NCBI GenBank assembly: GCA_016803235.1
Contig: JADCLI010000001.1
Coordinates: 225,605-289,604 of the forward strand
Reading direction: 5' to 3'
From: Pimelobacter simplex
Lineage (GTDB): Bacteria; Actinomycetota; Actinomycetes; Propionibacteriales; Nocardioidaceae
DNA: 64,000 nt
A model generated the notes under the pieces. It worked only from the letters and a program-made list of their open reading frames with translations, was not told the DNA's origin and did no database searches. Below, one piece after another: positions 51,342 to 63,923 of the stretch. Numbering within the stretch: the first letter of the stretch is position 1; the number at the start of each line of letters is the position of its first letter. The translations under genes and the position numbers were made by a program.

Positions 51342-51360
51342 CTGACGCCTCCCCGGGGTC

Positions 51361-51421
51361 GCGGTTTGGTCCCAAACCGCACGACTTCTCGGCGTGTCGC
51401 TGCGGTTTGGGACCAAACCGC
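51361..51421. repeat. Paired palindrome, copy A (between pafB and pafC)
   Basis: GCGGTTTGGTCCCAAACCGC (51361-51380), a 21-base spacer ending CGGCGTGTCGCT, then the exact reverse complement GCGGTTTGGGACCAAACCGC (51402-51421). Each half is a 9-2-9 palindrome; together the RNA could form two small hairpins or one 20-bp stem. It is the best-preserved of four copies (see 56289, 57375 and 63863). Confidence 0.9.
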
Positions 51422-51435
51422 AACGCTCCGGCCGC

Positions 51436-52398
51436 TCACGAGACCACCTGCTCGAGACGCGCGACGACCTGCTCGCGTACGGCGAGCGGCTCGAGGAGCA
51501 CCACGTCGGGACCGTGCGAGAGCACCTCGTCGGCCAGTCCCTGGGTGGGGCGGACGAGCACGACCCGGTCCCAACCGGTGCGGTCGTCTGGACCGTCGAC
51601 ACCGACCTCGATCCGGTCAGCGGCACGGCGCAGGCCGTGCCCGGCGCCGTCGCGCACGAGCAGCACGGCGGTCGTGCTGGGGATCGGTGGGGCCATCCGC
51701 CGCGCGATCTCGCGCACGTCGGTCTCCGGCGGGACGTCGTAGGCCCGTGGCGGGCCGACGAGCTGGACCTCGCCCTGGACCCGCGACAGCCGGAAGACGC
51801 GCTCGGCGGCCCGGTCGGCGTCGTATCCGACGAGGTACCAGCGTCCGGAGTAGCGCACGACACCCCAGGGCTGGACCCGTCGGCGCATCGGCGCGTCGGC
51901 GTCGGGGCGCTGGTAGTCGAACTCGATGGCGTTGCGCTCGCAGACCGCCACCCAGCACTTCTCGAAGGCGGGCTCCTCGGCCGTGAGCAGCGGCCGGGCG
52001 ATCTCGAGCGCGTCGAGGTCGACCTCGATGCCGGCGGCGGTGAGCTTGCGTACGGCGTCGGTCGTCGCCTGCGCCATCGTGGCGTGCTGCCACACCCGCG
52101 AGGCGATCCCGACGACCGCAGCCTCCTCGGGCGTCAGCTCCACGTCGGGCAGGGCGAACGCCTCCGGCGGGATGCGGTAGCCGACCTCGTCCTCGAAGAG
52201 CGGGTCGATCGTCGCGACCTCGACGGGTACGCCGAGGCCGCGCAGCTCCTCCTTGTCCCGCTCGAACATCTTCTCGAAGGCGTCGAGGCGGGAGTCGGGG
52301 TACAGCAGCTCGCGGATCCGCTCCTTGGCGATCGGCCTGCGCTGCACCAGGAGCATGATCAGCAGGTTGAGGAGACGCTCACTCTTCGGTGCTGGCAT
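51436..52398 (-). CDS. pafB: WYL-domain transcription factor PafB
   Basis: A 320-residue paralogue of PafC with N-terminal HTH (SERLLNLLIMLLVQRRPIAKERIRELLYPDSRLDAFEKMFERDKEELRGLGVPVE), a WYL domain (NAIEFDYQRPDADAPMRRRVQPWGVVRYSGRWYLVGYDADRAAERVFRLSRV) and a WCX domain. The ATG at 52398 (MPAPKSERLL) is the family-like start and overlaps the FKBP gene by 20 bases. Together with pafC it regulates DNA-damage genes; its location beside pafA is conserved. Confidence 0.93.
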   Translation of the reverse strand: MPAPKSERLLNLLIMLLVQRRPIAKERIRELLYPDSRLDAFEKMFERDKEELRGLGVPVEVATIDPLFEDEVGYRIPPEAFALPDVELTPEEAAVVGIASRVWQHATMAQATTDAVRKLTAAGIEVDLDALEIARPLLTAEEPAFEKCWVAVCERNAIEFDYQRPDADAPMRRRVQPWGVVRYSGRWYLVGYDADRAAERVFRLSRVQGEVQLVGPPRAYDVPPETDVREIARRMAPPIPSTTAVLLVRDGAGHGLRRAADRIEVGVDGPDDRTGWDRVVLVRPTQGLADEVLSHGPDVVLLEPLAVREQVVARLEQVVS

Positions 52399-53485
52399 CC
52401 GTGCTCGGTTCGGGGGCGGGGGTGGTGGCGCCCTCGGTCGGGGCGGCACCGTCGGTCGGCGTGGCCTCCGGCGCGGGCTCCGGCTTGGGCGGGGTGTCGG
52501 CGGCGTCGAGGATGTCGACGACGAAGTAGAGCGTGGAGTTGGCGGGGATGTCCTCACCCTGGGCCTGGTCGCCGTACCCGAGCTTCGGCGGGATCTGGAT
52601 CATCACCCGGCTGCCCACCGGGAGCCCGACGAGGGCCTGCGACCAGCCCTTGACCACGGAAGCGTCCTTGCCGCCCACCACGGCCTCGAGACCGCGGCCG
52701 TCGGCGTAGCTGGCGTCGAACGGCTTCTCGGCGCCCGGGATCTGGCCGAGGTAGCTGACCAGGATGGTCTGGCCCTTGGTGACCGCCGGTCCTGTGCCCT
52801 TCGTGAGGGTCGCGACCTCGAGGTCGCCGCTCGGCTTCGGTGCGTCCGCGAAGTCGAGGCTGGCCGGCAGGCCGGCGTCCTCGACGATCTTCGGCGCCCA
52901 GGCCGGCGCCGCCTCCTCGGTGCCCTCCGGGCCGGCGACACCGACGATGTCGGCGACGAAAAGCAACCCGTCCTCGTTGCCGATGTCGAGGCCCGCGAGC
53001 AGGCCGGCGGCCTGACTGCCGAGGTAGCCACCGAAGGCGACGTCGCTGCCGACGGTCACCGCGAGCCGGCTGCCGACCTTCTGGCCCGCCTTGATCTGGT
53101 CGGCGAAGCCCAGTGAGAGCAGGTCGGTGAGGGTCTGCGGCTCCTTCTCGGTGCCGACCTTGACCAGGGTGCTGAGCGAGTCGGCGGCGTAGCTGTCGAA
53201 CGGGACCTTGTGGGTCCAGCCGTCGGCGAGGGTGAACTCGACGCGGACGACGTCACCCTTCTTCAGCGTGGCGCCGTCACCCTCGGTGACCACCTTCGTC
53301 ACCGGCTTCTCCGCGGTCATCACGGACTTCCAGTCCAGCTTCGGCGCCTCGCCGACCGAGCCACTGATCGTGACCGCGTCGAGGCCCTTGGCCTGGTCGG
53401 AGTCCGAACCGCCGCACGCCGCGAGGGCGAGACTGGCCGGCAGCAGGGTCGAGAGGAGGAGCATCGAGGGACGTCGCAGGCGCAT
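52379..53485 (-). CDS. FKBP-type peptidyl-prolyl isomerase lipoprotein (two FKBP-like domains)
   Basis: This 368-residue lipoprotein has signal peptide MRLRRPSMLLLSTLLPASLALAACGG (lipobox LAAC). A first, degenerate FKBP-like domain (LKKGDVVRVEFTLADGWTHKVPFDSY...GQKVGSRLAVTVGSDVAFG) and a canonical second one (VTKGQTILVSYLGQIPGAEKPFDASYADGRG...VVKGWSQALVGLPVGSRVMIQIPPKLGYGDQ...NSTLYFVVDILD) follow, then a Thr/Pro/Glu-rich tail. It probably helps fold exported proteins at the outer face of the membrane. The neighbourhood (pafA, pafB) is conserved in actinobacteria. The ATG at 53485 is preferred over a TTG at 53497. Confidence 0.92.
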   Translation of the reverse strand: MRLRRPSMLLLSTLLPASLALAACGGSDSDQAKGLDAVTISGSVGEAPKLDWKSVMTAEKPVTKVVTEGDGATLKKGDVVRVEFTLADGWTHKVPFDSYAADSLSTLVKVGTEKEPQTLTDLLSLGFADQIKAGQKVGSRLAVTVGSDVAFGGYLGSQAAGLLAGLDIGNEDGLLFVADIVGVAGPEGTEEAAPAWAPKIVEDAGLPASLDFADAPKPSGDLEVATLTKGTGPAVTKGQTILVSYLGQIPGAEKPFDASYADGRGLEAVVGGKDASVVKGWSQALVGLPVGSRVMIQIPPKLGYGDQAQGEDIPANSTLYFVVDILDAADTPPKPEPAPEATPTDGAAPTEGATTPAPEPSTDASTEE

Positions 53486-53524
53486 CAGCACGCGCAAACC
53501 CTACCGAGTGCCCGAAGGCTTGTG

Positions 53525-54886
53525 TCACATGCCGTCGATCAGGCGTTGCACCCGCTCGTCGTACGCCCGGAACGGGTCCTTGCAGAGCACCGTGCGCTGC
53601 GCCTGGTCGTTGAGCTTGAGGTGCACCCAGTCGACCGTGAAGTCCCGGCGGCGCTCCTGGGCGCGGCGGATGAACTCGCCGCGCAGGCGGGCACGAGTGT
53701 TCTGGGGCGGGACCGACTTGGCCTCGAAGATCTTCAGGTCGCTGGTGACCCGGGCGACGGCGCCGCGCTTCTCCAGCAGGTAGTAGAGGCCGCGACCGCG
53801 GTGGATGTCGTGGTAGGCCAGGTCGAGCTGGGCGACCCTCGGGTGGCTCAGCGGGATGCCGTGCTTGGCGCGGTAGCGGTCGATCAGCTTCCACTTGATG
53901 ACCCAGTCGATCTCGCGGTCGACCAGGCTGAGGTCGTCGGACTCGACCGCCTTGAGGCCGCGCTCCCACAGGTCGAGCGCGCGCTCGATGACCGGTGTGG
54001 AGACGCCGCGGCGGTCGACGAAGTCGCGGGCCTTGGCGAGGTACTCGCCCTGGATGTCGAGGGCGCTGGCCTCCCGGCCGTTGGCGAGGCGGACCTTGCG
54101 GCGGCCGGTGACGTCGTGCGAGATCTCGCGGATCGCGCGGATCGGGTTCTCCATCGTGAGGTCGCGCATCACCACGCCCTCCTCGATCATCCGCAGCACC
54201 AGGTCGCAGGAGGCGACCTTGAGCATCGTGGTGGTCTCGCTCATGTTGGAGTCGCCGACGATGACGTGGAGGCGGCGGTACTTCTCCGCGTCGGCGTGCG
54301 GCTCGTCGCGGGTGTTGATGATCGGGCGGCTCCGCGTGGTCGCGCTGCTCACGCCCTCCCAGATGTGCTCGGCGCGCTGGCTGACCGAGTAGCTGGTGCC
54401 CCGGGGGGTCTGGGTGACCTTCCCGGCGCCGACGATGATCTGCCGGGTCACCAGGAAGGGGATCAGCACGTCGGCGAGGCGACTGAACTCCCCGGCCCGG
54501 CTGACCAGGTAGTTCTCGTGACAGCCGTAGGAGTTGCCGGCCGAGTCGGTGTTGTTCTTGAACAGGTAGATCTCGCCCGCGATGCCCTCGTCGTGCAGCC
54601 GCTGCTCGGCGTCCAGCAGCAGCCCCTCGAGGACCCGCTCCCCCGCCTTGTCGTGCGTCACCAGCTCGGTCACGTCGTCGCACTCGGGCGTGGCGTACTC
54701 CGGGTGGCTGCCCACGTCGAGGTAGAGGCGCGCTCCGTTGCGGAGGAACACGTTGCTGCTGCGCCCCCAGCTGACGACCTTGCGGAACAGGTAGCGCGCG
54801 ACCTCGTCGGGACTGAGTCGCCGCTGTCCGCGGAACGTGCACGTGACGCCGTACTCGTTCTCGATCCCGAAGATCCGACGGTCCAT
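53525..54886 (-). CDS. pafA: Pup-protein ligase PafA
   Basis: A 453-residue glutamine-synthetase-fold ligase. The opening [18 protein letters not shown] holds the ATP/metal glutamates (GIENEYG), [16 protein letters not shown] contains the catalytic D57, and [22 protein letters not shown] and [30 protein letters not shown] follow, as in the PafA/Dop family. It joins Pup's C-terminal Glu to substrate lysines. A leaderless promoter (TAATGT, 54898-54893 on the minus strand) lies 6 bases before the ATG. Confidence 0.97.
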
Positions 54887-54892
54887 GTACGC

Positions 54893-54898
54893 ACATTA
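54893..54898 (-). promoter_or_regulatory. -10 element of a leaderless pafA transcript
   Basis: TAATGT on the minus strand, 6 bases upstream of the pafA ATG (54886), with no ribosome binding site between. The opposite-strand oxidoreductase begins within 45 bases. Confidence 0.45.
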
Positions 54899-54930
54899 CT
54901 GCTGTGGTGGGCAGCGGGTACCTCACTCGC

Positions 54931-56280
54931 ATGGAAGCGCCGCAGGAGTTCTCGGAGTCGTACGACGTCGTCGTGGTCGGAGGGGGTGCGGCTGGCCTGC
55001 TCACCGCACTGTTGCTGGCTCGCGGAGGCTGCTCGGTGGCGGTCCTGGAGGCCCGGCGGATCGGTGACGGCACCACCGGTCACAGCACCGGGAAGGTCAG
55101 CCTGCTGCAGGGCACGAAGCTGAGGCGGGCGTTGCGCACCAACCCGCTGTCGGTCGTCCGGCGCTACGTCGAGGCGGGGACGGAGGGCCAGGCGTGGCTG
55201 CGCCGCTACTGCGAGGGACATGGGTTGCCGGTGCCGGGACGGGTGGCCTCGACGTACGCCGTGACCGAGCGGGGCGAGGACCGAGCCCGGGCCGAGCTCG
55301 AAGCCGCGCGGCAGGCGGGCCTGGCCGTCCGGTGGACGTCGGACACCGAGCTGCCGTTCGCGGTGCGAGGTGCGGTCGAGCTCGACGACCAGTTCCAGGT
55401 GGACCCGGTCAGGATGCTGAACCTCCTCGTCGCCGACGTCGTGGCCGAGGGCGGGCAGGTGCACGAGCAGGTCCGGGCCATCGGCGTGCACCACGCCGGC
55501 GACGGGGTCCGGGTGCGGACCGACGACGGACGGGACCTGCGCGCCGGCGTCGCCGTCGTCGCCACGAACCAGCCGGCGCTGCTGCGGGGCCTCTTCTTCG
55601 CCCGCCTGCAGGCCACGCGGTCGTACGCCGCGACCTTCGCCGGCGCCTGGGCACCCGCCGGGATGCACCTCTCGGCGGACGACGACGTGCGCTCGCTGCG
55701 GTCGGTCGACACCGGCGGGGAGCGTCTGCTGATGGTCGGCGGCGCCGGCCACGTGACCGGACGCGGCGCGGCGGCCGCGCACCGCGACCGCCTGCTGGAC
55801 TGGGCGCGCGAGACCTTCCCGGACGCGACGCTGCGTGAGGCCTGGTCGGCCCAGGACCAGTCCCCGGTCGACGGCCTGCCGTACGTCGGCCCCGCCGTCC
55901 CCGGCGACCACCGGATCCACGTGGTGACCGGCTTCGACAAGTGGGGACTCAGCACGGCACCGGCGGCCGCGCTGCTGCTCGCCGCCGACCTGCTCGGCGG
56001 CAGTCGTCCGGACTGGGCGGACGCCCTGCGCAGCTGGTCCCCGCGGCAGGTGCTCGCTGCGCCACGGGCGGCCGCTGCCAACGCCGAGGTCGGCTGGCAG
56101 CTCGCCTGCGGGCACGCCGGGCGACTGCTCGCCGGCGACCGGCCACCGCTGTGCACCCACCTCGGCGGCGTACTGACCTGGAACGACGCGGAGGACTCCT
56201 GGGACTGCCCCCTCCACGGCTCCCGGTTCGGCGCGGACGGGGAGGTGCTCGAGGGGCCTGCCACTCGCCCGTTGCGGTGA
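54931..56280 (+). CDS. FAD-dependent oxidoreductase with C-terminal Rieske [2Fe-2S] domain
   Basis: A 449-residue protein (458 if started at GTG 54904). The FAD-binding motif is VVVVGGGAAGLLTALLLARGGCSVAVLE, followed by a DAO-type fold (VAVVATNQPALLRGLFFARLQATRSYAATF and late VDGLPYVGPAVPGDHRIHVVTGFDKWGLSTAPAAALLLA). The C-terminal Rieske motif is CTHLGGVLTWNDAEDSWDCPLHGSRF. This combination occurs in amine or glycine oxidase-like proteins of unknown substrate. It is divergent from pafA and convergent with the Vsr/DUF559-like gene, so it is an insertion into the proteasome region relative to the usual order. Confidence 0.88.
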   Translation: MEAPQEFSESYDVVVVGGGAAGLLTALLLARGGCSVAVLEARRIGDGTTGHSTGKVSLLQGTKLRRALRTNPLSVVRRYVEAGTEGQAWLRRYCEGHGLPVPGRVASTYAVTERGEDRARAELEAARQAGLAVRWTSDTELPFAVRGAVELDDQFQVDPVRMLNLLVADVVAEGGQVHEQVRAIGVHHAGDGVRVRTDDGRDLRAGVAVVATNQPALLRGLFFARLQATRSYAATFAGAWAPAGMHLSADDDVRSLRSVDTGGERLLMVGGAGHVTGRGAAAAHRDRLLDWARETFPDATLREAWSAQDQSPVDGLPYVGPAVPGDHRIHVVTGFDKWGLSTAPAAALLLAADLLGGSRPDWADALRSWSPRQVLAAPRAAAANAEVGWQLACGHAGRLLAGDRPPLCTHLGGVLTWNDAEDSWDCPLHGSRFGADGEVLEGPATRPLR

Positions 56281-56288
56281 CCGGTGAT

Positions 56289-56349
56289 GCGGTTTGGTCC
56301 CAAACCGCATCAATTCGGGCCCAGATCATGCAGTTCCTGCCCAATCGAC
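56289..56349. repeat. Paired palindrome, copy B (right half degenerate)
   Basis: GCGGTTTGGTCCCAAACCGC at 56289-56308 is exact and is extended by TGA-T/A-TCA flanks to 13-bp arms. After 21 bases a degraded partner (about 11 of 20 bases matching) occupies 56330-56349, overlapping the 3' end of the convergent gene. The spacing equals that of copies A, C and D. Confidence 0.75.
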
Positions 56350-57288
56350 GGGCGTGGTCGAGCGGTACCAGCGGTTCATCACCCTGGCCCGGCCGGTCTC
56401 CGAGTAGAGCGAGTCGTCGACGAGGGCGCGCCACCTGCGCAGGCGCTCGGCCTGGTGCGGGCGATCGAGGACACGGTCGAGTTCGTGCATCAAGGTGGCC
56501 GCGTGGTTGAGGAGGTCGTCCAGCGTGTAACCACGACGCACGTACGCCGTACTCGCCAGCGCCCGCTCTCGGCGGAGGTCTCGGCGATGGACACTTGGTT
56601 CTCGGTGCACCCCGCCGTCGTACTCGTGGATGTTCAGGGTGCCGACCACGACGAGATCGGCGCGGCACACGAACCGCCCGCTCTCGTCGTGGATGTACAC
56701 CTGAGCCTCCGTCGGGACGTCCATGGCGTCGTGGAACTTCCGCAGGAGCGTCTCGCCAGCGGACTCGGCCAGGGAACTGCGGCTCTTCCAGACCCGGCGC
56801 AGGCGGCGAGTTCCGGGCCGTTTGGAGGCCAGCACCTTCTTGACCGCCGCCTCGTCGACGTGTCCGAGGTGTGCCGCGGAGTCGACCATGACGGCAAGGT
56901 CGAGGTCGCCGAAGTCTCGTGCCGCCCGCAACAGGATCTCCGCGGGCTCGTCGACGGGCAGTCCGTGCACGATCCTCGGCCGTGCCTGGTGGGTCAGTCT
57001 CGAGCAGATCAGGCCGGGCCGCCGCGGCCGGCAGTCCCCGCGCACTGCGGCGAAGTGCGGAACCTGTTCGGGCAGCACGGGGACCTGCCACCCGAGAAGA
57101 CGTGCCGCCGTGACGTGGGTGTACACCGCGCCGGGCGGCAGGACGAGGAGCAGAGCGCTGAGGTCGCGTAGGAAGTTCGCCCACGGAGTCAGGTGCGGCG
57201 TCTCCAGCCGGTAGAGGCCGTGCGCGACGCGCTGGTTCCCGGGCGCGCGGACCTCTCCGCGAATGGCTCCATCCGGCCCGATCTTCAT
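56326..57288 (-). CDS. AbiEi-like/DUF559 (Vsr-fold) protein, possible nuclease or antitoxin-like regulator
   Basis: This 320-residue protein has an N-terminal region of the AbiEi/DUF559 type common in actinobacteria (PPGAVYTHVTAARLLGWQVP, around residues 51-70). The C-terminal half has a Vsr-like core: GETLLR (E179), RADLVVVGTLNIHEYDGGVHREPSVHRRDLRRERALASTAYVRRGYTLDDLL with candidate catalytic D211, E222 and D224 (H-E-Y-D-G). Proteins of this class are often called AbiEi antitoxin-like or very-short-patch-repair-like; no toxin partner (AbiEii) lies next to it. It is flanked by palindrome copies B and C and interrupts the proteasome gene order, suggesting insertion. Confidence 0.72.
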   Translation of the reverse strand: MKIGPDGAIRGEVRAPGNQRVAHGLYRLETPHLTPWANFLRDLSALLLVLPPGAVYTHVTAARLLGWQVPVLPEQVPHFAAVRGDCRPRRPGLICSRLTHQARPRIVHGLPVDEPAEILLRAARDFGDLDLAVMVDSAAHLGHVDEAAVKKVLASKRPGTRRLRRVWKSRSSLAESAGETLLRKFHDAMDVPTEAQVYIHDESGRFVCRADLVVVGTLNIHEYDGGVHREPSVHRRDLRRERALASTAYVRRGYTLDDLLNHAATLMHELDRVLDRPHQAERLRRWRALVDDSLYSETGRARVMNRWYRSTTPVDWAGTA

Positions 57289-57374
57289 GACGAAAGAGTC
57301 GGTGCCTGGTGTACGTCGGGCAAGAGCCGCCTGCGCGCCTGTGGAAACGTGCTTGGGCGGTCGTTCGTCCGATC

Positions 57375-57435
57375 ACCGATTGGGCACAAACCGCCTCCGG
57401 GGCCGGCGTGTCGCTGTGGTTTGGGACCAAACCGC
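57375..57435. repeat. Paired palindrome, copy C (between the DUF559-like gene and prcA)
   Basis: The left half at 57375-57394 matches 15 of 20 bases; the right half GTGGTTTGGGACCAAACCGC (57416-57435) matches 19 of 20. The 21-base spacer ends in the same CGGCGTGTCGCT as copy A, which shows that the copies are related as whole units rather than as single palindromes. Confidence 0.85.
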
Positions 57436-57455
57436 AACGACAGGCCGACCACGCG

Positions 57456-58334
57456 TCACAGGGGCGGGGCGACAGGAGGCTCGCCGGAGGGCGGCTCGCC
57501 GTTGGTGGGGTGCTCGAGGGGCGGGACGTTGCCGGAGACCTGGTCGGTCGGGTCGGCGGGGTCGTCGCTGTCGGAGCCCGAGGCGCCGGAGCCGGAGGCT
57601 CCGTCCTCGGGGAGGGGGGCGGCGTGCTCGGGGGTGCCGCGCGGGCCGAGGAGCTCGGCGACCCGAGCCGGGCGCAGCCGTGAGAACTTCCGCGGCTGGG
57701 TGCGGGTGCGGTCGAGGACGGCGACCTCGAGGTCCTCGACCGGGATCACCCGGTCTCCGTCGCCGGTGTGGCCGAGCGCGGCCACGGCGACGCTGAGGGC
57801 CTCGCCGAGCGAGGCACCGGCGGCGTAGTGCGAGGACAGGTACGACGACACCGTCTCGCTGTCGCCGCCCATCACCGCGAAGCCGTGCTCGTCGGCCACC
57901 CGGCCCTCGTAGGTGAGCCGGTAGATCTGGTCCTCGTCTGCACTCGAGCCGACCTCGGCGACGAAGATCTCGACCTCGTACGGCTTCTCGCCGCCCGAGG
58001 AGAAGATCGTGCCGAGGGTCTGCGCGTAGGCGTTGGCGAGGCCGCGGCCGGTGACGTCGCGGCGGTCGTAGGCGTACCCGCGCATGTCGGCCAGCCGGAC
58101 GCCGGCGATACGGAGGTTCTCGAACTCGTTGTAGCGGCCGACCGCTGCGAACGCGAGCCGGTCGTAGAGCTCGGAGACCTTGTGCAGGGCCTGGGAGGGG
58201 TTCTCGGTGACGAGCAGGACGCCGTCGGCGTACTGCACCGCAGCGAGGGACCGGCCGCGGGCGATGCCCTTGCGGGCGAAGTCCGCCCGGTCCTTCATCA
58301 GCTGTTCGGGCGAGACGTAGAACGGGGTGCTCAT
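57456..58334 (-). CDS. prcA: 20S proteasome alpha subunit PrcA
   Basis: A 292-residue alpha-type proteasome subunit beginning [46 protein letters not shown], with the core [56 protein letters not shown]. It forms the outer gated rings of the core particle and docks the Mpa C-terminus. The C-terminal 60 residues are low-complexity Pro/Gly/Ser/Glu-rich, longer than usual. The ATG overlaps the prcB stop by 4 bases. Confidence 0.96.
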
Positions 58335-59185
58335 GCCTGCGTCTCCTCTCCCCCGCCGGGCAGGGGTGCGAGCGGACCGTCGGGTCGTTCGAAGCGGGCA
58401 CCGACGACCTGGTCGGCGAGCGCGCCGATGGCAGCCTCGTCGAGCTGGACGGCGCCGTCGGCGGTCACGACCCACACGATCGGGAAGATCCGGCGGGTCA
58501 GGTCGGGACCGCCGGTGGCGGAGTCGTCGTCGGCGGCGTCGTACAGCGCCTGCAGGCAGACCCGGACGGCGTCGTCGGACGACAGGCCCTCGTGCCAGAG
58601 CTTCTTCAGCGCGCCGCGGGCGAACAGCGAGCCCGAGCCGACGGTGAAGAACGACGCCTCCTCGTGGCGGCCGCCGGTGACGTCGTAGCCGAAGATCCGA
58701 CCGGTGCCGCTGTCGAGGTCGTAGCCCGCGAACATGGGGACGACGGCCAGGCCCTGCATCGCCATCCCGAGGTTGGCGCGGATGAGGGCGGAGAGCCGGT
58801 TGGCCTTGCCGTCGAGGGAGAGGATCGAGCCCTCGATCTTCTCGTAGTGCTCAAGCTCGACCTGGAACAGGCGGACCATCTCGACCGCGAGACCGGCGGT
58901 GCCGGCGATGCCGACCACGGAGTACTCGTCGGCGGGGAAGACCTTCTGGATGTCGCGCTGGGCGATCACGTTGCCCATCGTGGCCCGGCGGTCGCCGGCC
59001 ATCACCAGGCCGCCGGGGAAGGTCACCGCGACGATGGTGGTGCCGTGGGGCGCGATCTCGGCGGCGCTGCCGGCCGGCAGGGACCGGCGGGCGGGAAGGA
59101 GGTCAGGGGCGTTCTCGGCCAGGAAGTCGCTGAACGAGGAGGTGCCAGGGCGCAGGAAAGCGCCCGGGATGCGCGCGTCGCTCAT
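58331..59185 (-). CDS. prcB: 20S proteasome beta subunit PrcB
   Basis: This 284-residue precursor is processed at PHG-TTIVAV, exposing catalytic Thr49. The remaining beta-subunit features are [26 protein letters not shown] (D and K catalytic helpers), [17 protein letters not shown] and [18 protein letters not shown]. The 48-residue propeptide assists assembly. It starts 6 bases downstream of pup and overlaps prcA. Confidence 0.97.
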
Positions 59186-59191
59186 CGGGGG

Positions 59192-59389
59192 CTACTCGCC
59201 GCCCTTCTGGATGAACGACTTCACGAAGTCCTCGGCGTTGGTCTCGAGGACGTCGTCGATCTCGTCGAGGATCGCGTCGACGTCGTCGTCGAGGGCCTCC
59301 TTGCGCTCGGCCACGTCGGACTCGGGAGCGACCTCGGTCGTCTCCTCCGCCTCGTCGGACTTGCGCGGCTGCTTCTGCTCCTGAGCCAT
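59192..59389 (-). CDS. pup: Prokaryotic ubiquitin-like protein Pup
   Basis: A 65-residue disordered, acidic protein (EQKQPRKSDEAEETTEVAPE... and the helix DDDVDAILDEIDDVLETNAEDFVKSFIQKGGE). It ends in GGE, the ligation-ready form, so unlike mycobacterial Pup (GGQ) it needs no deamidation. The C-terminal Glu is coupled to lysines by PafA and the helix binds the Mpa coiled coil. A leaderless promoter lies 6 bases upstream of the ATG. Confidence 0.97.
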   Translation of the reverse strand: MAQEQKQPRKSDEAEETTEVAPESDVAERKEALDDDVDAILDEIDDVLETNAEDFVKSFIQKGGE

Positions 59390-59395
59390 GACGCC

Positions 59396-59401
59396 AGCCT
59401 A
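59396..59401 (-). promoter_or_regulatory. -10 element of a leaderless pup-prcB-prcA transcript
   Basis: TAGGCT on the minus strand ends 6 bases before the pup ATG. The same hexamer precedes dop (60957-60952) and both sides of the Lrp palindrome. Confidence 0.5.
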
Positions 59402-59436
59402 TCCACTCAGACCCCAACGCGTCGGCCCATCCCGGC

Positions 59437-60945
59437 CTAACGGCTGAGTGCGCGGACCAGCTCGTCCGCCGTGGCACACCGATCGATCAGCTCGCCGACG
59501 TGGGCCTTGCTGCCCCGCAGCGGATCGATCGTCGGGACCCGCTGCAGAGACTCGCGTCCGGGCAGGTCGAAGATCACCGAGTCCCAGGACGCGGCGGCGA
59601 TGTCGGGGGCGTACTTCTCCAGACAGCGGCCGCGGAAGTACGCGCGGGTCTGCTCCGGCGGGTTGGTCATCGCCTGCTCGACGTCGTCGTCGGTCAGTAG
59701 GCGCTGGATCCGCCCGGCGCCGACCAAACGGTGGTAGAGGCCCTTCTCGGGACGGATGTCGGAGTACTGGTAGTCGATCAGCTGCAGCTTCGCGTCGTCC
59801 CAGGCCAGCCCGTCGCGGGAGCGGTACTGCTCGATCAGCTTCAGCTTCGCGACCCAGTCGAGCTGGTCGGCCAGCGACATCGGGTCGGACTCGAGTCGGG
59901 CGAGGACGTCCTCCCAGCGATGGAGCACGTCGACGGTCTGGGGGTCGGCATCCGCGCCGTACCTGTCCTCGACGTACTTCTTCGCCAAGTCGAGGAACTC
60001 CAGCTGGAGCTGGATGCCGGTCAGTCGGCGCCCGTCGGCCATGGTCACGGTCTGGCGAAGGGACGGGTCGTGGGAGACCGCGCGCAGGGCCGACACGGGT
60101 GTGTCGACGGCGAGGTCGCGGGTGATGAACTTCTCCTCGATCATCGCCAGCACGAGCGAGGTGGTGCCGACCTTGAGGTAGGTCGCGATCTCGGACAGGT
60201 TCGCGTCGCCGATGATCACGTGCAGCCGGCGGTAGCGCTCGGGGTCGGCGTGGGGCTCGTCGCGGGTGTTGATGATCGGCCGCTTGAGCGTGGTCTCCAG
60301 ACCGACCTCGACCTCGAAGAAGTCGGCGCGCTGGCTGATCTGGAAGCCGTGCTCACGGCCGTCCTGGCCCTTGCCGACCCGGCCGGCGCCGCAGAACACC
60401 TGCCGGCTGACGAAGAACGGGGTGAGGTGGCGGACGATGTCGGCGAAGGGGGTGGACCGGCGCATGAGGTAGTTCTCGTGCGCGCCGTACGAGGCACCCT
60501 TGTTGTCGGTGTTGTTCTTGTAGAGAACGATCTGCGGGTTGCCGGGCAGCTGCTGCGCACGGCGGGCGGCGTCGAGCATGACCTGCTCCCCCGCCTTGTC
60601 CCAGCGGACGACGTCGAGCGGCGTGACCACCTCGGGGGTGGAGTACTCCGGGTGCGCGTGGTCGACGTACAGCCGGGCGCCGTTGGTCAGGATGACGTTG
60701 GCGAGGCCCAGGTCCTCGTCGGTCAGCTGCGTCGGGTCCGCGATCTGACGGGACATGTCGAAGCCGCGGGCGTCGCGCAGCGGCGACTCCTCCTCGAAGT
60801 CCCACCGCGCCCGGCGGGCCCGCACCGTGGCGGTCGCGTAGGCGTTGACGACCTGCGACGACGCCACCATCGGGTTGGCTGTCGGCTGGCCCTGGACCGA
60901 GATGCCGTACTCCACCTCGGTGCCCATCACGCGGCGCACGCTCAT
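59437..60945 (-). CDS. dop: Depupylase/deamidase Dop
   Basis: A 502-residue PafA paralogue. The N-terminal [19 protein letters not shown] (metal-binding glutamates), the Dop-specific loop region around [23 protein letters not shown], the catalytic D95 in [41 protein letters not shown] and [30 protein letters not shown] are present. Because Pup here ends in Glu, the main task is removal of Pup from substrates. Starts with ATG 60945; GGAGGC and a TAGGCT -10 precede it. Confidence 0.96.
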
Positions 60946-60951
60946 GCCTCC

Positions 60952-60957
60952 AGCCTA
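60952..60957 (-). promoter_or_regulatory. Candidate -10 upstream of dop
   Basis: TAGGCT on the minus strand, 6 bases before the dop ATG, identical to the pup -10. The intervening GGAGGC may also serve as a short ribosome site. Confidence 0.4.
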
Positions 60958-61028
60958 CGGTGTCGGGCCGACCGTGCGGCGGGATGCCGACGCCTGGTTC
61001 GGGTAGCGGACAGGCCGGGGGTGACGCC

Positions 61029-61844
61029 GTGGGTGACACGCAGCAACAGACGGAGCACGCGGCTCGCGAGGCGCGCGACAACGCCGTGGTGAGCGTCGCC
61101 GCCCGCGTCGGGATGGCGGCGTACGGCATGGTCTACGTGATCGTGGCGTGGCTGGCCGCGCAGCTGGTCCTGGGCGATCGCGCCGGGTCGGCCTCGGGTC
61201 AGGGTGCGTTGCAGGAGGTGCGCGAGCAGCCGATGGGCGCAGCCGTCCTGTGGTTGGTCGCGGCCGGGCTCAGCGGCCTCGCGGTGTGGGAGGCCTGCCA
61301 GGCGATCGGCGGCCACCGCGACGAGGAGGGTCTGCGCCGGTGGGGTGCGCGGGCCGCCTCAGCCGGGCGGGCCGTGGTGTTCACGGTCCTCGCCGTGCTG
61401 GCGGTCCGCGTGGCCGGCGGCCACACCGGCTCCGGTGGCGGCGCGACCGGGCGGCTGATGGAGCTGCCGATCGGGTCGGCCGTCGTCGTGGTGGTGGGCC
61501 TCGGCATCGCCGGGGTCGGTGTCGTCAGCATCGCGCACGCGTTCTCGGACCGATGGCGGCGCGGCCTGGAGCCGGAGGCGCGCGGAGGCGCTCTCGGGAG
61601 CCTGGTCACCGTGCTGGCCCGGATCGGCTTCGCGGCCCGTGGCGCGGCGTTCCTGGTGCTGGCCGGGATGTTCGTGTGGAGCGCCGTCACCCACGACCCG
61701 GAGAAGTCGGGAGGCCTGGACCAGGCCATCGTCCGTTTCCGGGACGAGCCGTACGGCCCGCCGTTGCTGCTCGTGGTCGCAGCCGGACTGGGGTGCTACG
61801 GGGCCTTCCACGTGCTGCGGGCCGGCTTCCTCCGCGGGGAATGA
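61029..61844 (+). CDS. DUF1206 membrane protein (three repeats)
   Basis: This 271-residue protein has six transmembrane helices in three two-helix repeats, each beginning with a R-(I/V)-G-(M/F)-A-A-(Y/R)-G-type motif: ARVGMAAYGMVYVIVAWLAAQLVLG, AASAGRAVVFTVLAVLAVRVAGG and ARIGFAARGAAFLVLAGMFVWSAV. This is the DUF1206 pattern; function unknown. The GTG start (VGDTQQQTEHAAREARD) is inferred from the hydrophilic N-terminal segment. It is divergent from dop and ends before a strong bidirectional terminator. Confidence 0.85.
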   Translation: MGDTQQQTEHAAREARDNAVVSVAARVGMAAYGMVYVIVAWLAAQLVLGDRAGSASGQGALQEVREQPMGAAVLWLVAAGLSGLAVWEACQAIGGHRDEEGLRRWGARAASAGRAVVFTVLAVLAVRVAGGHTGSGGGATGRLMELPIGSAVVVVVGLGIAGVGVVSIAHAFSDRWRRGLEPEARGGALGSLVTVLARIGFAARGAAFLVLAGMFVWSAVTHDPEKSGGLDQAIVRFRDEPYGPPLLLVVAAGLGCYGAFHVLRAGFLRGE

Positions 61845-61860
61845 GCTCCCCCGGGAACGT

Positions 61861-61892
61861 CACGTGCCGGGCCCCGAGGGGCCCGGCACGTG
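61861..61892. terminator. Very strong bidirectional stem-loop
   Basis: CACGTGCCGGGCCCC (61861-61875) pairs perfectly with GGGGCCCGGCACGTG (61878-61892), 15 bp with a 2-base nominal loop. It lies between the DUF1206 stop (61844) and the minus-strand peptide stop (61899) and can terminate both. Confidence 0.75.
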
Positions 61893-61898
61893 CGGGAG

Positions 61899-61973
61899 TC
61901 AGCGGCTCTTCGCGACCTTGACGGCGGCAGTGACGCCGAGCGCGACGAGGGCGACGATGATGAGCTTCTTCAT
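61899..61973 (-). CDS. 24-residue membrane peptide (DLW-39-like)
   Basis: The minus-strand frame from ATG 61973 reads MKKLIIVALVALGVTAAVKV then AKSR and stop. It is a short hydrophobic helix with a basic end, resembling the N-terminal half of actinobacterial DLW-39 family peptides but without the terminal D-L-W. A perfect AGGAG (minus strand, 61985-61981) lies 7 bases upstream of the ATG, which argues that it is translated. It lies 69 bases downstream of mpa and ends before the 15-bp terminator. Confidence 0.55.
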   Translation of the reverse strand: MKKLIIVALVALGVTAAVKVAKSR

Positions 61974-62042
61974 GGGATGGCTCCTGAAGGATGGGGTGCG
62001 GACGGGACGTGGCCCACCCTAGGCGAGCGGGGCAAGCGTGAC

Positions 62043-63806
62043 CTACAGGTACTGGCCCGTGTCGTTGACGGTGTCGATCGAGCGGCCCGGCTCGGTGCCC
62101 TGCTTGCCGGTGATGAGGGTGCGGATGAACACGATGCGCTCGCCCTTCTTGCCCGAGATCCGCGCCCAGTCGTCGGGGTTGGTCGTGTTGGGCAGGTCCT
62201 CGTTCTCCTTGAACTCGTCGACGCAGGCCTGGAGCAGGTGCGACACGCGCAGGCCCTTCTGGTCGTGCTCGAGGAAGTCCTTGATCGCCATCTTCTTCGC
62301 ACGGTCGACGATGTTCTGGATCATCGCGCCGGAGTTGAAGTCCTTGAAGTAGAGGACCTCCTTGTCGCCGTTGGCGTAGGTCACCTCGAGGAAGCGGTTC
62401 TCCTCGGTCTCGGAGTACATCCGCTCCACGGTCGCCCGGATCATGCCGCCGACGGTCGCCTTGCGGTCGCCGTTGAACTCGGCCAGGTCGTCCGCGTGCA
62501 GCGGCAGGCTCTGGGTGAGGTACTTGCTGAAGATGTCGCGGGCGGACTCCGCGTCGGGCCGTTCGATCTTGATCTTCACGTCGAGGCGACCGGGGCGCAG
62601 GATCGCCGGGTCGATCATGTCCTCGCGGTTGGAGGCGCCGATGACCAGGACGTTCTCGAGCAGCTCGACGCCGTCGATCTCGCTGAGCAGCTGCGGGACG
62701 ATGGTGTTCTCGACGTCGGAGGAGACACCGGAGCCGCGGGTGCGGAACAGCGAGTCCATCTCGTCGAAGAACACGATGACCGGCGTACCGGTGCTGGCCT
62801 TCTCCCGCGCCCGTTGGAACACCAGCCGGATGTGGCGCTCGGTCTCGCCGACGTACTTGTTGAGCAGCTCGGGGCCCTTGATGTTGAGGAAGTACGACTT
62901 CCCCTCCTGGCCGGTCTTCGCCGCGACCTTCTTGGCCAGCGAGTTGGCGACGGCCTTCGCGATCAGCGTCTTGCCACACCCCGGAGGGCCGTAGAGCAGG
63001 ATGCCCTTGGGCGGCTTGAGCTCGTGTTCGGCGAAGAGCTCGGGGTAGAGATACGGCAGCTCGACGGCGTCCTGGATCGCCTCGATCTGGTTGCCGAGGC
63101 CGCCGATGGTGTCGTAGGTGATGTCGGGGACCTCTTCGAGGACCAGCTCCTCGACCTCGGACTTCGGGACCTTCTCGTAGACGTACCCGGCTCGGGAGTC
63201 GAGCAGCAGCGAGTCGCCGGCCCGCAGGGTCTCGGTGAGCAGCGGGTCGGCCAGGCGGACGACGCGCTCCTCGTCGGCGTTGGCGATGACCAGGACGCGC
63301 TCGCCGTCGGCGAGCACCTCCTTGAGCATGACGACCTCGCCCACGGTCTCGTAGTCGAACGCGGCGACCACGTTGAGGGACTCGTTGAGCATCACCTCCT
63401 GGCCGCGCCGCAGGGTCTCGAGGTCGACGTTCGGGCTCGCCGTCACCCGCAGTTTGCGGCCGCCGGTGAACACGTCGACGGTGTCGTCCTCGTTGCGCTG
63501 CAGGAAGGTGCCGAAGCCCGCCGGGGGCTGTGCCAGACGGTCGACCTCCTCCTTGAGCTTGAGGATCTGGTCGCGGGCGTCGCGCAGGGTCCCGGCGAGG
63601 CGCTCGTTCTGGGACGTCACCGCCGCCAGCGAGCGCTGGGCCTCGGCGAGCCGGGCCTCCAGCGAGCGCGCCGCTCCGGTCGGGCTGTCGACGAGTCGAC
63701 GGCGCAGATCGCCGACCTCCTCCTCGAGGTAGCGCACCTGGTCCTCGAGCTCCTCACGGCTCGGGGAGTGGTGTCCGCCGGTCGTGCCTTCTCCCATGCT
63801 CGTCAT
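62043..63806 (-). CDS. mpa: Proteasome-associated AAA+ ATPase Mpa/ARC
   Basis: A 587-residue unfoldase. An N-terminal coiled coil ([29 protein letters not shown]... to about residue 95) binds Pup. Two OB-fold domains follow, then the AAA module with Walker A GPPGCGKT, Walker [11 protein letters not shown] and sensor/arginine-finger residues ([20 protein letters not shown]). The protein ends in GQYL, the motif that docks on the PrcA ring. A very good ribosome site (AAGGAGGT) precedes ATG 63806 and a -10 (TAATGT, 63831-63826) lies upstream. It hexamerises and feeds pupylated proteins to the core. Confidence 0.97.
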
Positions 63807-63825
63807 GGCACACCTCCTTGATCCG

Positions 63826-63831
63826 ACATTA
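63826..63831 (-). promoter_or_regulatory. Candidate -10 of mpa
   Basis: TAATGT on the minus strand, 20 bases upstream of the mpa ATG, leaving room for the AAGGAGGT ribosome site; the same hexamer precedes pafA. Confidence 0.35.
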
Positions 63832-63862
63832 CTCGGGCGGGTGTTACATGGAAGTGATTAAC

Positions 63863-63923
63863 GCCCTTTGGGCAGAAACACCATGTACCAGGCCGGAATT
63901 GTTGCGGTTTGGGACCAAACCGC
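63863..63923. repeat. Paired palindrome, copy D (upstream of mpa)
   Basis: The right half GCGGTTTGGGACCAAACCGC (63904-63923) is exact and extended to 12-bp arms by GTT/AAC. The left half (63863-63882) is degenerate (about 13 of 20). The spacer is again 21 bases. It lies between mpa and the gene truncated at the window end. Confidence 0.75.

Follow-up and report, generated by a model that had tools for sequence, protein, structure and literature searches.

A nuclease-like gene flanked by dispersed ~61-bp palindromic units at the proteasome locus of Pimelobacter simplex

Palindromic units and a nuclease-like gene at the proteasome locus

The window examined here, a 64,000-nucleotide stretch of DNA from the soil bacterium Pimelobacter simplex (contig JADCLI010000001.1, positions 225,605 to 289,604), contains the proteasome locus and a short palindrome that an earlier reading of the same letters (the original prediction) described as a four-copy paired element. 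The palindromic arm, GCGGTTTGGTCCCAAACCGC or its complement, is located at 51361, 51402, 56289, 57416 (with one mismatch) and 63904, and, as had been claimed, there is no other in the window, even when up to three mismatches are allowed; dinucleotide shuffles contained 0.02 arms on average. The five arms make up four units of ~61 bp (A to D, Table 1), in every one of which an inverted partner arm starts 41 bp away, in agreement with the predicted 21-base spacing. The partner matches the palindrome perfectly in A and is degenerate in B (12/20), C (15/20) and D (13/20), and the spacer segment that A and C were said to have in common, CGGCGTGTCGCT, is real.

Table 1. Palindromic units at the proteasome locus and the open reading frame (ORF) bracketed by two of them, in window coordinates
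Feature	Position	Strand	Remarks
Solo unit A	51361..51421	none	arms 51361-51380 and 51402-51421, both perfect; 21-nt spacer
Composite element (unit B, nuclease-like ORF, unit C)	56289..57435	-	orthologues bracketed likewise
Flanking unit B	56289..56349	none	outer perfect palindrome 56289-56308; inner partner GCAGTTCCTGCCCAATCGAC 56330-56349
Nuclease-like ORF	56326..57288	-	320 aa; AbiEi C-terminal-type and EDxHD/Vsr-type nuclease domains (predicted)
Flanking unit C	57375..57435	none	inner partner 57375-57394; outer palindrome 57416-57435, one mismatch
Solo unit D	63863..63923	none	degenerate partner 63863-63882; perfect palindrome 63904-63923

The units had been placed in intergenic or gene-end positions, and they are indeed intergenic apart from one arm, the inner partner of unit B, which overlaps the 3' end of the ORF at 56326-57288. 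Unit A sits between the start of pafC and the stop of pafB, and unit D is found upstream of the gene for the proteasomal ATPase (62043-63806, minus strand), several relatives having D-like units in similar flanks. The count of four units is correct, but they are not four equivalent copies of one element: B and C bracket a single ORF, while A and D each stand alone. The gene between B and C, which the original prediction overlooked, is the key feature of the locus.

The predicted AbiEi C-terminal-type domain of the encoded protein spans residues ~37-171 and the predicted EDxHD/Vsr-type nuclease domain residues ~176-275, and the best solved folds are those of the homing endonuclease I-Bth0305I, AbiEi and Vsr. 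The match to the AbiEi structure 6y8q covers chain residues 55-195 only, and the AbiEi-type domain apparently lacks the winged helix. The acidic and histidine residues of the predicted EDxHD/Vsr-type catalytic fold are invariant, and the gene is under purifying selection (ratio of nonsynonymous to synonymous substitution rates 0.11-0.27 over 36 pairs from nine orthologues); interrupted copies occur in a few genomes (G204, G242 and G135). The ORF had no transposase match in Pfam or NCBIfam, where this actinobacterial protein family is mostly unnamed, and its AbiEi match in PADLOC was weak (E 1.3e-4). A PDB sequence search with the protein alignment returned only weak matches (3hrl, E 0.61); the alignment, A1, held 40 of the 54 extracted proteins, the other 14 being L200 and sequences that were interrupted, near-duplicate, badly bounded or simply omitted. 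Among the ten ORFs at 50.3-63.8 kb scanned against Pfam there was no DUF1814 (AbiEii) partner and no toxin or modification gene, and no intron was found in the window. The ORF was present in 31 of the 32 regions examined, always beside pafA, and beside prcA in all 30 regions whose stretch included prcA. In some genomes pafA and the nuclease-like gene have a DAO-Rieske oxidoreductase gene (window 54904-56280) between them; in others it was not found there.

Dispersal of the units and their linkage to the gene

Contrary to the original prediction, the palindromes are not confined to the proteasome locus, since seven contigs of the 5.36-Mb genome (82 contigs) together contain 16 arms at ≤1 mismatch; at three mismatches the backwards control gave 1 and 2 matches versus 16 and 18. 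By the partner score used, a clear palindromic partner at 41 bp is missing from two of these sites (L001 and L015). When 294 genomes of the family were surveyed, the arm was found at ≤1 mismatch in 25, all from the same genus and with 4 to 45 arms each, save two genomes with one arm, and the backwards control gave zero in every genome. The region matched by the arm was the proteasome locus in all four genomes fetched (G131, G029, G204 and G272). This genome-wide and family search showed no sign of random spacing: arms were 41 bp apart in 30 of 33 listed pairs, 42 bp in two and 40 bp in one. Arms of one genome also tend toward a variant of their own, as with GCCGTTTGGTCCCAAACCGC in 12 of the 13 arms listed for G131 (20 counted). 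Tandem whole units at steps of ~122-154 bp were seen in several genomes (L145, L168 and L170).

Although the units are dispersed, the proteasome locus is the centre of their density in five chromosome-level relatives. Among units whose distance from the gene exceeds 2.5 kb (nearer ones were left out), those lying within 150 kb of it numbered 8/25 in G286, 10/23 in G258, 7/18 in G203, 7/17 in G177 and 7/12 in G278, versus an expectation of ~5% (p 3e-5 to 8e-8), and clustering was also significant at other radii. This test used listed arms only (one G278 arm is unlisted) and merged sites within 1 kb, and two of its five genomes, G177 and G203, are near-identical.

Gene and palindrome also occur together. 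Of the 16 palindrome-bearing genomes tested, 14 have the ORF, at one place each, and G108 and G076 have an orthologue plus a more distant homologue. With orthologues defined by a score of at least 290 bits, above a gap in the score list down to 243, 42 of the 294 family genomes have the gene, and the palindrome was found in 23 of these 42 versus 2 of the 252 others (G280 and G272). Diverged pairs beside the gene, such as CACGTTTGGTCCCCAACGAC / GTCGTTGGGGACCAAACGTG in G194, were present in all 14 genomes examined out of the 19 that have the orthologue but no palindrome at ≤1 mismatch. When sites were read by eye with up to five mismatches, they flanked the gene on both sides at 32 of 34 orthologue loci and on one side at the other two. 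In G272, which is without the gene, the DAO gene adjoins prcA with a single altered 19-base palindrome, GCGGTTCGGGCCGAACCGC, between them (L063:13349-13367), which we read as a scar. We found no clean site representing the state before insertion of the gene, and no gene was seen visibly splitting its own target.

One presence/absence difference concerns unit A. Of 34 pafB/pafC regions examined, two were without one of the genes; among the remaining 32 genomes, eight, the window included, carry a unit in a pafB/pafC gap of exactly 97 bp. The gap is 241 bp with two units in G204, and 97 bp but without a unit in G239, while the genes overlap by ATGA or GTGA in G286, G213 and G191 and are separated by 5 to 56 bp in the rest. 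We read the unit here as a probable 98-bp insertion with a TGAGC-like sequence on both sides, a duplication seen at this one locus only. Weighing against the insertion reading, G286 is close to the unit-bearing G177, such that its absence of the unit at pafB/pafC may reflect loss. In the window, the unit at 51342-51435 parts pafB from pafC by 94 bp, the junction being 98 bp longer than in relatives with overlapping stop and start codons, an arrangement in which the two PafBC subunits may no longer be translationally coupled.

Other differences in unit presence between relatives have ragged ends. At L173, where a unit is present only in G203 and not in G177, an intergenic stretch has been replaced, so we rejected this site as a clean insertion; the difference between L105 and L134 was rejected as a unit event because its breakpoint is ~30 bp from the unit. 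A ~2.3-kb insertion sequence (IS)-like insert in G177 (L108:1680-3958), which begins GGCTCTTCCC, contains an AraC-like ORF by eye and lies in the middle of a palindrome arm that is intact in the near-identical G203 (L131), is unrelated and was rejected as a parent element.

The original prediction took the full ~61-bp element as the unit, and in this it was right. Over 92 units from nine genomes, conservation extends from about -3 to +58, with information near background outside, although these units were picked by likeness to the arm and the 41-bp register, which biases arm conservation. A less biased view comes from seven of the eight unit-bearing pafB/pafC junctions (near-duplicate G203 left out), where identity was 100% in the first arm and 74% in the second, versus 59% in the left flank, 54% in the spacer and 45% in the right flank. 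Many second arms have a distinct common form, GCRGTYTSTGCCCAATCGA. Many units, at L113, L114, L145, L150 and other loci, are followed immediately to the right, between about +61 and +75, by a further short palindrome, ACTGGTCAGACCA, which resembles the arm cores of distant homologues (AACTGGTCA).

Distant homologues and their private units

A sequence-free scan for inverted 20-nt arms revealed dyads beside distant homologues of the gene, with unrelated arm sequences. The scan fixes the parity of the spacer but not its exact length, with 47, 46, 46 and 44 hits at spacers of 17, 19, 21 and 23 nt versus 3-5 at nearby even spacers; the similar counts at odd spacers are the same dyads with shifted arms, and the register comes from arm coordinates. 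A unit was near the gene at 15 of 30 distant loci (from Nocardioides, Cellulomonas, Microlunatus, Propionibacteriaceae and others), and there were 21 dyads in the 27 kb near the gene versus 7 in 131 kb far from it and 0.45 in base shuffles. Of the gene-side dyads, 15/21 are 3' of the gene and 6/21 are 5'. A class-wide search matched 39 of 394 genomes, and a unit was present in a flank at 17 of 22 loci and at 10 of the 12 outside the family (on both sides at five), counts that come without a separate shuffle run and from a locus set partly overlapping the 30 distant loci.

Private units are dispersed in three of the four genomes tested (G344, G606 and G284), and none was found away from the gene in the fourth, G146; backwards controls were zero in all four. 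G344 contains 25 arms; 12 pairs have a spacing of exactly 40 bp, the one arm left over has a poorer partner, and 11 of these 13 units are on contigs other than that of the gene. G606 has 27 arms on seven contigs, at least four places being away from the gene (some places are doubled in the arm count, since a unit stands at the contig ends C12/C9 and C89/C2), and three or more units of G284 lie away from the gene. At two G606 loci (L330 and L349) arms form nested arrays with 31- and 40-bp steps and the order - - + +; elsewhere there are simple pairs.

Models for the spread of the units

We favor, as reasonably probable, the explanation that each palindrome pair is one copy of a dyad recognition unit (~61 bp) of the gene at 56326-57288 and has been spread by the action of its nuclease. 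Under this model, two 20-bp inverted half-sites, 41 bp apart, would constitute the recognition unit of the nuclease-like protein; the complete element would be the gene plus its two flanking units, and A, D and the other copies would be short gene-free units. A 61-bp dyad with two half-sites fits the finding, reported in PMC3943268, that the target on which EDxHD enzymes dimerise is almost 60 bp long. We propose that the nuclease would bind both half-sites as a dimer. Cutting would follow, at a unit or an unoccupied target or close to one of these, and the unit would be inserted or restored when the break is repaired from a nearby linked copy, such that spread would be mainly to linked positions and half-sites would stay similar within a genome. 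Binding, dimerisation, cutting and the copying step are all events that we infer. Whether the system is class-wide, with AbiEi-fused EDxHD-type nucleases of Actinomycetes dispersing their own ~60-bp dyad site rather than the gene, preferentially nearby and with a private site for each enzyme lineage, we regard as evenly balanced.

The closest resemblance is to REPIN/RAYT systems, in which (PMC3116915) short inverted doublets with near-fixed spacing are numerous in a genome, the enzyme gene lies beside its cognate repeats, and repeat groups differ by enzyme. The spacing of the units described here is likewise near-fixed. The same text describes repetitive extragenic palindrome (REP) doublets as randomly distributed in extragenic space, whereas our units cluster round the gene, and the protein is predicted to be EDxHD/Vsr-like. 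A Y1_Tnp (PF01797) gene was found in none of 18 genomes at E ≤ 0.001, while 5 of 14 control genomes were positive; a known REP/RAYT family is therefore not the explanation, and we rejected a RAYT/Y1 transposase as the driver. The pair may instead be a functional counterpart of the REPIN-RAYT pair built on an unrelated enzyme. The predicted fold resembles that of the EDxHD homing endonuclease I-Bth0305I, but, unlike genes for such enzymes, this one has a unit on each side, with no intron found in the window and no visibly split target seen, its short gene-free units are dispersed, and an AbiEi-type domain precedes the nuclease domain. AbiEi antitoxins of type IV AbiE systems differ in that here the N-terminal DNA-binding part is unmatched, a nuclease-type domain is fused and the DUF1814 partner is missing among the ORFs scanned; insertion sequences and miniature inverted-repeat transposable elements differ in that the ORF here is devoid of Pfam and NCBIfam transposase matches; our units flank this ORF and also recur alone. 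In mitochondrial double-hairpin elements, which are organellar, adjacent hairpins act as a mobile unit, and we know of no EDxHD gene associated with them. Among the matches listed in a search of open-licence text, no description of such a gene-and-unit pair appeared. We rate the pairing as belonging to no known kind, a rating that draws on open-licence literature and a mechanism that we infer.

The original prediction offered a REP-like mobile element or a protein-binding site, and both ideas survive. The second is the strongest alternative, although we consider it unlikely: the units could be operators of a DNA-binding regulator or a chromosome organiser, for which parS and matS are the comparison, with the AbiEi-like protein controlling the proteasome genes or the region. 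Two observations fit operators, namely the clustering of units near the gene and the complete conservation of the first pafB/pafC arm between much less conserved flanks and spacer. AbiEi proteins, moreover, bind their own promoter at paired inverted repeats of 23 bp (PMC7319586), but the repeats described there are 3 or 13 bp apart, versus 21 here, and our AbiEi match lies outside the N-terminal DNA-binding part. The predominantly 3' location of gene-side dyads at distant homologues is unlike an autoregulatory operator, unit positions vary between relatives, and the invariant nuclease-type residues would be left unexplained. More improbable still is that the units are passengers of another mobility enzyme or of palindrome recombination, with the ORF as cargo between two of them. 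Two mobile units flanking a gene can form a composite element, and an IS-like insert did land in one palindrome; however, homologous genes have private units at other places and in other genera and families, and cargo would not pick one gene family. The absence of Y1_Tnp from the 18 genomes also argues against it, other transposase families not having been searched for.

We give little credence to a role in self-recognition or defence, in which the nuclease would degrade foreign DNA and chromosomal units would mark or titrate it; the weak PADLOC match and the nuclease-type residues are compatible with this, but no toxin or modification gene was seen among the ten ORFs scanned. Equally doubtful is a function at the RNA level, as terminators or processing hairpins; the predicted RNA processing or attenuation site is weakly supported at best. 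Single-strand folding of unit A is far above shuffles (z -6.8 and -8.6), that of B and D moderately so (z -3.3 and -2.9) and that of C little (z -1.8), and the palindrome extends further in the 40 ORF-flanking arms (run 2.6 versus 1.1, reached in 0 of 2000 shuffles). Over all 92 units, however, extension was in slight excess only (5.23 versus 4.89 of 12), and we did not use general hairpin covariation as support, the excess being clear in ORF-flanking arms only. In G344, a genome from another family, arm position 15 is unpaired in 5 of 13 units and inner positions are without covariation, such that pairing is not maintained at inner positions of the arms. Unit D is upstream of a gene and unit A within an operon, and a scan of the window yielded no Rfam family at gathering score, which led us to reject a known RNA family as the identity of the units.

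If spread of the unit by its nuclease is correct, Y1 transposases would not be the only enzyme class able to drive short interspersed repeats in bacteria, and a nuclease of the homing type could propagate its target site rather than its own gene, with the local bias representing a bacterial example of short-range hopping. The occurrence of gene and private, easily read 61-bp site in many lineages would provide a set of protein-DNA specificity pairs. The model would account both for the interruption of the pafB/pafC operon and for a mostly unnamed actinobacterial protein family, and the units would represent self-spreading DNA of a previously undescribed kind.
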